Shown: in pieces, positions 5,982 to 36,741 of the stretch
How positions within the stretch are numbered: the first letter of the stretch is position 1
Layout: each line of letters begins with the position of its first letter
DNA from: Phycisphaerales bacterium
GTDB lineage: Bacteria > Planctomycetota > Phycisphaerae > UBA1845 > Fen-1342
NCBI GenBank assembly: GCA_020427345.1
Contig: JAGQOO010000006.1
Coordinates: 1-36,741, forward strand
Reading direction: 5' to 3'
Length of the DNA stretch: 36,741 bases
Notes under the pieces: model-generated
Database searches by the model: none
The model's input: the letters and a program-made list of their open reading frames with translations, nothing else
What the model was told of the DNA's origin: nothing
Position numbers and translations under genes: made by a program

Positions 5982-7397
5982 TTAGCCGAGCAACGCCAAG
6001 GCCTGCTGCGGCTGCTGGTTCGCCAATCGCAGCGTATTCGTCGCCGACTGCGCCAGGATCTGGGCACGCGTCAACTGGCTGGTCTCGAAGGCGAAGTCCG
6101 TGTCGCGGATCGAGCTCTCGGCCGCGGTCGTGTTCTCGTATGAGACGAGTAACGAGTTCGCGGTCGTTTCCAGCGTGTTCTTCTGGAAGGCGCCGATTCG
6201 GCCGCGAAGCTCCGAGACCTGCGTCTGGGCGAGGCGGACGATGCGTTGTGCCGTCAGGTAGTTTCCGGTGTCGAGCGAATTGGCTTGGCCGCTGCCCAGC
6301 GAGGAGAGGAAGCCGACGTTGCCCTTGCCCAGCGAACTTGTTGCGACATTCGAAACGCCAAAGCTGGCCACGCCGTTCAGATTGACTGTCGGAGCGATCG
6401 CGAAGTCCGCCCCGCCGCCGGTGACGTGGAATGTTCGCGTGCCCGGCGCTCCGCCGAATGTCGCCGACAGATCAAGTTCCAGATTGAGCGTCGAAGACTG
6501 GAGGCGGGCGTTGAGACCGCGAACATCGGCCTGTACCCCGTTTACGAAGACGACGGCGTCGACACCGTGATCGTCGGTTCCGGGATCATCGCTGGTCGTC
6601 GCGAATGTGCCGGTCAGCGCGTTGACGGACACGAACTGCGAGGAGCCGAACTCGGTCGAGGACAGCACGAGCGACGTGCCGGAAATGGTAGCCGACACGC
6701 CGGTCAGTTCGGTCGCCTCGTTGACGGCGGTCGCGACAGTCGCGATGGCGGTGCCGGACGCGAAGCTGAAGACTTCGGTGCCCTGATTGCCGCTCACTTC
6801 GATCGTCGTCGTGCCCGTGCCGGTGGCCGAGCCCGAGTAGACCAGTCGGGCGGCCGAGGCGCCGGTGGTGACTTCGACGACGACGGCGCGGGTCGCGTTG
6901 TTCGCGAGGCGGGCGCCGAGGATGTCGACGTTTGTGAAGTCCGCGGCGGCGACGCCGGACGTTGTATAATCGAGTTCGCCGCTGAGCAGTTTCTTGCCCT
7001 GGAACTCGGTGGAGTTAGCGATGCGGTTGATGGACGAGAGGATCGCGTCAATCTGGAGTTGATTGGCGCGGCGCTCGTCATCGCTGATGCCGGCTTCGTT
7101 GGCGCTGTGGTCGACAAGCTCTTCGAGTTCGACGAGGAGCGAGTTGACCTCGATCAGGCCGCCTTCCGCCGTCGCGATGACGTTGTTGGCGCGGCTGATG
7201 TTGGTCAGCGCGGCGTTGATCGCCGTCTTTTCGGCCCGCAGCGTTTCAGAGGCAATCAGGCCGGCCGGGTCGTCCTTGCCGACGTTGATTCGAAGGCCCG
7301 TGCTGAGACGATTCAGCGACGTGTCCAGTCCGCGGTTCTGAGCAGTCAGCACGCGCTGAGCGATCAGGGACTGAATGTTGGTGTTGATGCGACTCAT
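5982..7397 (-). CDS. fliC: Flagellin 1
   Basis: A 471-residue filament subunit, exported by the flagellar type III system and polymerised at the tip. The N-terminal D0/D1 region is classical: MSRINTNIQSLIAQR, then LNRLSTGLRI and DDPAGLIASETLRAE. The C-terminus has the matching helices, AESSIRDTDFAFETSQLTRA to ANQQPQQALALLG. Residues of about 150-380 are a Thr/Ser/Ala-rich central region likely to form the exposed domain. GGAGG at 7411-7407 precedes the ATG by 9 nt and sits in a small hairpin. It is the last gene of the cluster and has its own terminator. Flagellin 2 upstream has similar ends and length, so they are probably paralogues. Confidence 0.95.
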   Translation of the reverse strand: MSRINTNIQSLIAQRVLTAQNRGLDTSLNRLSTGLRINVGKDDPAGLIASETLRAEKTAINAALTNISRANNVIATAEGGLIEVNSLLVELEELVDHSANEAGISDDERRANQLQIDAILSSINRIANSTEFQGKKLLSGELDYTTSGVAAADFTNVDILGARLANNATRAVVVEVTTGASAARLVYSGSATGTGTTTIEVSGNQGTEVFSFASGTAIATVATAVNEATELTGVSATISGTSLVLSSTEFGSSQFVSVNALTGTFATTSDDPGTDDHGVDAVVFVNGVQADVRGLNARLQSSTLNLELDLSATFGGAPGTRTFHVTGGGADFAIAPTVNLNGVASFGVSNVATSSLGKGNVGFLSSLGSGQANSLDTGNYLTAQRIVRLAQTQVSELRGRIGAFQKNTLETTANSLLVSYENTTAAESSIRDTDFAFETSQLTRAQILAQSATNTLRLANQQPQQALALLG

Positions 7398-7690: not shown

Positions 7691-9118
7691 CTAACCGAGC
7701 AGTTGCAGCACGCTTTGCGGGGTCTGCTGGGCCAGGGCCAGAACCGACGTGCCGGCCTGGACCAGAATCTGGTCGCGGGCCAGTGTCGAGGTTTCCTGGG
7801 CAAAGTCCGCGTCGCGGATCTGCGATTCGGACGCCATCAGATTCTCCAGCGTGATGCCCAACTGATTGACGTTCGTATCGAGCGTGTTCTTTTCGAACGC
7901 GCCGAGTCGACCGCGCATCACGGCCACCTGACGAATCGCCTCTCTCACGATGCGCTGCGCCTGGTGGGTTTCTTTCGCGACGAGCGAGTATTGGCCGCCG
8001 GACTGAATCTGAGTGAGGAAGCCGACGTTGTTATCCCCCAGGCGCGTGGCCGCGACGGACTGAACGCCGACGCCTACCTGCAGATTCGTGTTGACTTCCG
8101 GACCGACCTGGAAATTGGCGCCACCGCTTGTGATGGCAAACGACGTCGTGCCCAGACCGAACGTCTGATCCAGGGCGATCTCCATATCGAGGGTGCCGGT
8201 CTTGATCGACAGATGGTTGCCGTCGCCCAGGCTGGAGGCGCCGTTCACGGTCGCGACGGCGTCGCGCCCGATATCGCGCGTTTGCGGATTGCCATTTACA
8301 TCGACCGTCTGGAACGATCCACCGGTTGAGAGTGTGCGGACCGAAACGAACTGTCGGCTGCCGAGCAGCTGGCTTTCAATCCGGAAGCCCGACGCGCCGT
8401 TGCTGGATAGTGTCGCGGTAACGCCGGTCGCTTCGGCGACAGCATTGATCGCCGCCACCATGGCCGAAGCCGCGGTTCCGGAAGTGAATTGGAGTGTGGC
8501 GACACCGAGATTGCCTTGCAACTCAAGAACAACCGAGCTCGTGACGTTTCCGGCAGGGTAATCAAGAATCGCTGGTTGCGCGGATGTCGTAACTTCAACG
8601 GTCACCGGGACAAACGGTCGCGTGCCGAACGAAGCCGAGTGGATGTTCAGCGCATCGATCACGCTGTAGTCGGTGCCGCTGGTGATGTAGTCGAGCGAGC
8701 CGTTGAGCAACTGCCGTCCGGCGAACGTGGTGCTGTTCGCGATACGGGTGATGCTCTCGATGGCCGAGTCGACCTGAAGCTGGTTTGCGCGGATTTCCTC
8801 TTCGGACAGCGCGCCGTCGTTGGCGGCTTCGACGATGAGGTCCTGCACGTCAACGAGCAGTCGGGCGACTTCGTCCAGCGCGCCTTCTGTAGTCGCGATG
8901 ATCAGGCTGGCGCGCTGCGTGTTTGAGATTGCCTGCCCGACCGCGCTGATTTCAGCTCTCAGGCGTTCGGACACGATCAGCCCGGCCGGATCATCGGCGC
9001 CGCGCGTGATCCGCAGACCGCTCGACAGGCGCTGAATCGTGCTATTGAGGTTCTGATTTGCGGAGGCGAGGTGTCGCTGAGCGACCAGAGCGCCGACGTT
9101 CGTGTTAATACGAGCCAT
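7691..9118 (-). CDS. fliC: Flagellin 2
   Basis: A 475-residue flagellin. The N-terminus is MARINTNVGALVAQRHLAS, followed by IQRLSSGLRITRGADDPAGL. The C-terminus runs through ASESQIRDADFAQETSTLAR to QQTPQSVLQLLG. The centre (about 150-390) is divergent and Thr/Ser-rich, with FAITSGGANFQVGP echoing FHVTGGGADFAIAP of flagellin 1. GGAGGA lies 7 nt before the ATG. The gene follows csrA by 81 nt on the same strand and is probably co-transcribed with it. Two unlike flagellins suggest a composite filament or alternative subunits. Confidence 0.95.
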   Translation of the reverse strand: MARINTNVGALVAQRHLASANQNLNSTIQRLSSGLRITRGADDPAGLIVSERLRAEISAVGQAISNTQRASLIIATTEGALDEVARLLVDVQDLIVEAANDGALSEEEIRANQLQVDSAIESITRIANSTTFAGRQLLNGSLDYITSGTDYSVIDALNIHSASFGTRPFVPVTVEVTTSAQPAILDYPAGNVTSSVVLELQGNLGVATLQFTSGTAASAMVAAINAVAEATGVTATLSSNGASGFRIESQLLGSRQFVSVRTLSTGGSFQTVDVNGNPQTRDIGRDAVATVNGASSLGDGNHLSIKTGTLDMEIALDQTFGLGTTSFAITSGGANFQVGPEVNTNLQVGVGVQSVAATRLGDNNVGFLTQIQSGGQYSLVAKETHQAQRIVREAIRQVAVMRGRLGAFEKNTLDTNVNQLGITLENLMASESQIRDADFAQETSTLARDQILVQAGTSVLALAQQTPQSVLQLLG

Positions 9119-9121
9119 TTG

Positions 9122-9138
9122 CCATCCTCCATGAATGG
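9122..9138 (-). promoter_or_regulatory. Candidate CsrA site at flagellin 2 Shine-Dalgarno
   Basis: The mRNA reads CCAUUCAUGGAGGAUGGC just before the start. CCAU (9138-9135) can pair with AUGG (9125-9122), leaving GGAGG in the loop. AGGAUG matches the core of the CsrA consensus. A further CAGGAAU lies about 23 nt upstream. The four-base stem is weak. Confidence 0.4.
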
Positions 9139-9199
9139 GCCTTGGCCAGATTCCTGGGGGTTACGAATTCCGTTTCGATCAGTATGGGAAGTCGGGTGG

Positions 9200-9436: not shown

Positions 9437-9513
9437 CCGCGGCTCCTTCCTGGGTTATGCCGATGCGGTGGGAAGCTCGCCGCCGCACGCCAAAGCGGAC
9501 GCCCTGTAAGTCT

Positions 9514-9532
9514 GCGCGACTTCCTGTCGCGC
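9514..9532 (-). promoter_or_regulatory. csrA leader hairpin with AGGAA loop
   Basis: Read on the mRNA, GCGCGAC (9532-9526) and GUCGCGC (9520-9514) form a perfect 7-bp stem around AGGAA, about 78 nt before the csrA start. A GGA held in a short loop on a strong stem is the textbook high-affinity CsrA ligand. The second GGA cluster, AGGAAGGAG, is the csrA Shine-Dalgarno itself, so one CsrA dimer could bridge both. Binding is inferred. Confidence 0.6.
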
Positions 9533-9579: not shown

Positions 9580-9585
9580 ATTATA
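9580..9585 (-). promoter_or_regulatory. Possible -10 box upstream of csrA (TATAAT)
   Basis: A perfect TATAAT on the minus strand lies in the fliW-csrA gap. Transcription would start near 9573, giving csrA a leader of about 137 nt containing the hairpin at 9514-9532. The -35 position has no good TTGACA match; a TTTACGACA stretch upstream is too close. Confidence 0.4.
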
Positions 9586-9621: not shown

Positions 9622-10071
9622 TCACGCTGTCCGGGCCACCGGGCGCGTGCTGCGGGCCGACATCAGACGATGTCTGGTGCTGTATTTCTTCTCAGAGAGC
9701 ACGAGTTGACGGCCCAGGAGCGAGTTCACCCCGATGACGAGGGGCCCCAGCAGGTTGGCCGTCAGCGCGCCATCCACTTTGTTGACGATGACGAAGACCT
9801 GGCAGGCCTCGACTGCGTCGGCGTCGATCGACTCCAGCTCCTCGCGCCGGATCGTGGCCTGAAAGTCGGGCACGAATGTCAGCGGATCGCAAACGACGAA
9901 CGCCAGTTCGGGCCGATCGACGGATTGCAGCCAGAAGAATGCCGGATCGTTGTTCGTCTGCAGCAGCGCGAAACGCTGTTCGCCCGGGAAACCGGGCATA
10001 CCATCCCTGAACCGCATGATGCGGCTGTCATCCACTTCGATGGATCCGAAGCGCGACGTTTCGATGAGCAT
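9622..10071 (-). CDS. fliW: Flagellar assembly factor FliW
   Basis: A 149-residue protein from ATG 10071, chosen because AAAGGA lies just upstream; a GTG at 10098 would add nine residues. FliW family features are clear: MLIETSRFGSIEVDDSRIM, then F.DGMPGFPGEQRFALL, FFWLQSVDRPELAFVVCDP and a later VFVIVNK. In B. subtilis FliW binds flagellin in the cytoplasm; when flagellin is exported, FliW is freed and binds CsrA, relieving repression of flagellin translation. The order flgL-fliW-csrA-flagellin fits that role. The Lys/Arg-rich tail (KKYSTRHRLMSARSTRPVAR) is family-variable. A structured GGA-rich leader lies upstream. Confidence 0.94.
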   Translation of the reverse strand: MLIETSRFGSIEVDDSRIMRFRDGMPGFPGEQRFALLQTNNDPAFFWLQSVDRPELAFVVCDPLTFVPDFQATIRREELESIDADAVEACQVFVIVNKVDGALTANLLGPLVIGVNSLLGRQLVLSEKKYSTRHRLMSARSTRPVARTA

Positions 10072-10163
10072 TTCCTTTGCTCCCACGGCCCTGGCCACTG
10101 TGATCTTCCTGCCGCTCGACGCGCCGGTCCCAGTGACCGGATCCTCGCTTCATCGAGCCGGAC

Positions 10164-36153: not shown

Positions 36154-36741
<588 letters not shown>

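Follow-up and report, generated by a model that had tools for sequence, protein, structure and literature searches.

Candidate CsrA-binding elements in the csrA and flagellin leaders of a Phycisphaerae bacterium

In a Planctomycetota genome whose name-identified relatives are Phycisphaerae/Phycisphaerales assemblies, the csrA leader carries a hairpin that presents GGA in its loop, which raises the question of whether csrA is controlled by its own product and, if so, through which RNA elements such control may act. A sequence-only reading of the 36,741-nucleotide stretch analyzed here (the window) had proposed this hairpin as a CsrA site, and its description of the sequence, the coordinates, the perfect 7-bp stem, the AGGAA loop and the GGA cluster at the csrA Shine-Dalgarno (SD) sequence proved exact. 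Likewise, its assignment of the downstream gene to csrA is borne out by the Pfam CsrA match (Table 1).

On the minus strand, Pfam matches and translations give the order flgN, flgK, flgL, fliW, csrA, flagellin and flagellin, in which csrA encodes the single CsrA of the host genome. The grouping of fliW, csrA and flagellin expected for flagellin homeostasis is found in the window as well as in relatives. The CsrA translation carries L4 and R44, which act in RNA binding (PMC7652899), as well as I51 and N55, matching the combination of N55 with V/I51 that serves FliW binding (PMC7829508). A scan for the sigma-70 consensus gave no full two-hexamer match; family-wide conservation of the TATAAT hexamer following the fliW stop makes it likely that csrA is transcribed with a leader of ~137 nt, the start of this transcript being assumed. 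A search of Rfam at gathering thresholds returned a 16S rRNA as its sole match, and the 16S rRNA gene at 36154-36741 is truncated by the contig end.

Table 1. Positions of genes and of observed or predicted RNA elements in the window
Feature	Position	Strand	Basis
fliW	9622..10098	-	Pfam PF02623, E 1e-32
TATAAT, likely -10 of the csrA promoter, after the fliW stop	9580..9585	-	column conserved in family alignment
Hairpin GCGCGAC(AGGAA)GTCGCGC, candidate accessory CsrA site	9514..9532	-	exact in sequence; predicted fold
Conserved csrA initiation element; predicted 10-bp stem around SD and start codon	9427..9466	-	order-wide conservation
GCATCGGCAT, upstream decamer of the csrA initiation element	9466-9457	-	
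AGGAAGGAGCC, two overlapping GGA at the csrA SD	9441..9451	-	near-invariant in order
AGGAAGGAG, SD GGA cluster	9451-9443	-	sequence
ATGTTGGTGC, csrA start	9436-9427	-	part of the conserved initiation element
csrA, 78 aa	9200..9436	-	Pfam PF02599 (CsrA), E 2e-24
Flagellin leader element: outer GGCCA/UGGCU, inner CCATTC(ATGGA)GGATGG enclosing the SD	9113..9147	-	family architecture
Flagellin 1, presumed CsrA target	7691..9118	-	Pfam Flagellin_N and Flagellin_C
Flagellin 2	5982..7397	-	Pfam Flagellin_N and Flagellin_C

The hairpin 9532-9514 sits in the 185 nt that separate fliW from csrA, and its stem consists of six G-C pairs and one A-T pair. As the sequence-only reading had suggested checking, we folded the csrA leader; its MFE structure and its centroid alike contain the hairpin. 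In the ~137-nt leader the stem pair probabilities are 0.97-0.98 and the loop bases 0.98-1.00 unpaired, so that its GGA is predicted to be exposed as in a CsrA-binding hairpin. In dinucleotide shuffles of the 185-nt leader, a perfect stem of at least 7 bp with GGA in a loop of 4-8 nt arises with P 0.0054; across the whole window on both strands, 6 such hairpins were found against 3.4 expected, and the location therefore counts for more than the hairpin itself. The stretch from the assumed transcript start to csrA contains just three GGA, one in the hairpin loop and two at the SD.

Two features of the geometry weaken what had been claimed for this hairpin. The loop described for high-affinity CsrA sites is an ANGGAN hexaloop (PMC7652899), and the window loop shares with such RsmE/CsrA hairpins a GGA displayed in a stem loop that starts with A and is closed by C-G; unlike them, AGGAA has 5 nt, with no N between A and GGA, and is one base short of that hexaloop. 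In addition, 71 nt separate the GGA of the hairpin (9524-9522) from that of the SD (9450-9448), beyond the 10-63 nt reported as the range within which a single dimer of CsrA can span two sites (PMC7652899), which makes the proposed bridging by a single dimer less likely; the structured stretch between the two could shorten the path.

We next consider conservation, for which all relatives compared belong to genera other than that of the window. Neither in 26 family leaders (window included) nor in 33 other leaders of the order was the hairpin matched in place and sequence, and when 27 family genomes were searched with the leader DNA, nothing at csrA was shared beyond the 31 nt directly preceding the start. 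Positional conservation within family or order was accordingly rejected, and the raw GGA count of order leaders was not enriched either (155 versus 154). The sequence-only reading had itself named missing conservation of stem and loop GGA in relatives as evidence against its proposal, and for the window copy this is the outcome.

A different picture emerges when hairpins are compared by type across csrA leaders. We defined a CsrA-type hairpin by a loop of the form ANGGAN, AGGAN, ANGGA or NAGGA on a stem of at least 5 bp. In a first set of 75 leaders, mostly from the family and order, 7 carried such a hairpin (6 without the window) compared to 1.5 ± 1.1 in shuffled sequences and none on the reverse strand. 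At a stem of 6 or more the count was 7 against 0.7, giving a stem of the strength seen in the window a chance rate of ~10%. Because the loop rules had been chosen after part of this set had been seen, they were fixed ahead of fetching 58 fresh leaders from the class. Of these, 23 carried a CsrA-type hairpin versus 1.0 ± 1.0 in shuffles and 0 on the reverse strand (17 versus 0.38 for stems of 6 or more), and they span nine families, ten leaders coming from one family and the others from eight more. Since the reverse strand has identical stems, the enrichment lies in the loops. GGA was by far the commonest loop core in the fresh set (31/58), followed by GAT with 13, which overlaps GGAT, against a median of 3; most loops were hexaloops starting with A, and C-G closed 25 of 43. 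By sequence comparison, hairpins of the CsrA type located 5' of the SD are thus a real trait of csrA leaders across the class. In the order of the window they are rare (7 of 75), and GGA-core hairpins in general are not exceptional there (14/75, compared to 19 for CCG and GCG), which places the window copy among a minority. The proposal of a CsrA site is thus strengthened by the class-wide hairpins and by the conserved GGA at the SD, and weakened for this particular copy by its lack of conservation; the hairpin is probably a lineage-specific accessory candidate site.

What is conserved in the csrA leader lies closer to the gene. The pattern GCATCGGCAT..AGGAAGGAGCCG.GG-ATGTTGGTGC is nearly fixed across the order, the remaining leader being scrambled, and the 31-nt block shared upstream of csrA has the form GCATCGGCAT..AGGAAGGAGCC..ATG and contains the SD GGA. 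Hence, a conserved GGA site (AGGAAGGAGCC) overlaps the csrA SD, as would be looked for in an autoregulated leader. A predicted stem joins the upstream decamer to the first ten csrA bases (three G-U), nine of the ten pairs reaching a probability of 0.94. The SD is predicted to lie in its apical part, where the second GGA, 95-100% unpaired, occupies an AAGGAG hexaloop. Across leaders, compatible substitutions were at random expectation (31 versus 30.3), RNAalifold predicted zero pairs in the block, and the inner SD stem gave a weak signal. The duplex z was about -2.3 in leaders with the canonical block, family members that have lost the block show modest complementarity (mean z -1.1), and the stem is absent from other orders. 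The start stem is thus a predicted structure supported by energy and complementarity rather than by covariation.

Queried against all GTDB species, the motif CATCGGCA..GGAAGGAGCCG gave 113 matches, 42 of which are located 3-4 bases upstream of the start codon of csrA; where a title is shown, these are Planctomycetota, except one labelled just 'bacterium', and the remaining matches, not before csrA, look like background. We set aside the idea that an upstream reading frame accounts for the block, because two relatives show a one-base length change within it. Two further observations concern this element. The start-codon element at 9466-9427 combines a near-invariant ATGTTGGTG codon choice with the complementary upstream decamer. 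Second csrA copies that have no fliW directly upstream (L060 and L061) carry GCCAA(AGGAG)TTGGC over the SD, a hairpin of independent sequence with a CsrA-type loop.

In most of the class, the flagellin gene that follows csrA has CAATC(ANGGAG)GATTG at the SD, with the stem replaced elsewhere by sequences such as CAGTC/GACTG, CCATC/GATGG or TAGTC/GATTA. Over 82 distinct sequences the covariation score of this hairpin was 0.232 as compared to 0.131 ± 0.014 in shuffles (0/500); slid positions did not exceed 0.105, and 36 cells were altered on both sides versus 17.7. The form UCANGGAGGA matches the fuller RsmE/CsrA consensus beyond the loop. It also fits the ANGGAN loop with C-G closure described for RsmE (PMC7652899). 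In the family of the window the element reads CC[G/A]UUC(ANGGA)GGAUGG inside AGCCA/UGGCU; the window differs from this consensus (GGCCA, CCAUUC) by changes that preserve the pairs. Its fold has a probability of 0.24 in longer context, where another fold competes. A CsrA-type site over the flagellin SD, as homeostasis would predict, is indicated by the class covariation and by the matching architecture in the window, where the predicted fold is weak in longer context. As evidence for an RNA element, the C(ANGGAG)G hairpin appears stronger than the hairpin 9532-9514.

How is the window hairpin to be understood in the light of these results? It might be a GC-rich palindrome that arose by chance in a leader of high GC content, any CsrA autoregulation using only the conserved SD element. 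The missing conservation in family and order, the number of such hairpins across the window and the unexceptional GGA cores of the order are in line with this, whereas the low probability of the hairpin within this very leader, its loop, which like those of the class-wide hairpins begins with A and is closed by C-G, and the excess of CsrA-type hairpins over shuffles in order leaders point the other way; we regard a chance palindrome as unlikely, though a serious contender. We consider it quite improbable that the conserved element acts as a hairpin at the start codon which adjusts csrA translation on its own or via another factor, its GGA being simply Shine-Dalgarno and CsrA being inactive on its own mRNA. 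The strong predicted pairing of the 10-bp complementarity GCATCGGCAT/ATGTTGGTGC, the duplex energy of canonical-block leaders and the presence of GGA in any SD all agree with such a hairpin, but it would leave the class-wide upstream hairpins with their strand-specific GGA loops unexplained, and its stem is missing in other orders.

On balance, we favor a model in which the csrA leader is under CsrA autorepression within FliW-CsrA-flagellin homeostasis, the hairpin 9532-9514 most likely being an extra, lineage-specific CsrA site. In this autorepression model, we infer that CsrA in excess over FliW would bind the GGA elements at the SDs of flagellin and csrA mRNA and, once bound, would block ribosomes, that flagellin export would free FliW, and that free FliW would remove CsrA; the hairpin may add affinity or recruit CsrA to the csrA transcript. 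More tentatively, and with somewhat less confidence than in autorepression, a two-target CsrA circuit can be envisaged for Phycisphaerae. Here the mRNAs of flagellin and csrA would each display their SD in a loop of the CsrA type, upstream csrA hairpins would come and go between lineages, and in the order of the window a conserved hairpin would in addition hold the csrA start codon, so that CsrA dose and flagellin would be buffered together.

By analogy, the simplest circuit would be the Bacillus one plus csrA autorepression. As in the FliW-CsrA-Hag system of Bacillus subtilis, fliW and csrA are adjacent in Phycisphaerae with flagellin next, a CsrA-type GGA element covers the flagellin SD, and the window CsrA retains RNA-binding and FliW-binding residues; unlike in Bacillus subtilis, the flagellin element, known here from sequence, is one covarying SD hairpin, usually with an ANGGAG hexaloop, and csrA itself is also predicted to bear CsrA-type sites. 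The csrA gene of Escherichia coli is autoregulated through leader GGA sites, one of them overlapping the SD, and CsrA is controlled there by the CsrB/C sRNAs, with no FliW. The window leader likewise has GGA sites with one overlapping the SD, whereas the leader sequences are unrelated. Our search of the open-licence literature on CsrA and Planctomycetes/Phycisphaerae found no study of CsrA targets or csrA leaders. Conserved sites at the csrA and flagellin ribosome-binding sites thus point to a known type of flagellum control in a poorly studied class, and they extend FliW-CsrA flagellin control to a class of Planctomycetota with evidence from conservation and covariation, providing precise RNA elements open to testing. 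The comparison also suggests that upstream csrA autoregulatory sites turn over fast and that SD sites stay fixed.

Two minor observations concern the distal part of the cluster. A short AGCC(TTTGGA)GGCT-like hairpin at 7415-7397 contains the SD of flagellin 2, which may be one more target of CsrA, and 3' of this gene a 10-bp hairpin followed by TTGTTTTTCT at 5946-5911 is the likely operon terminator.
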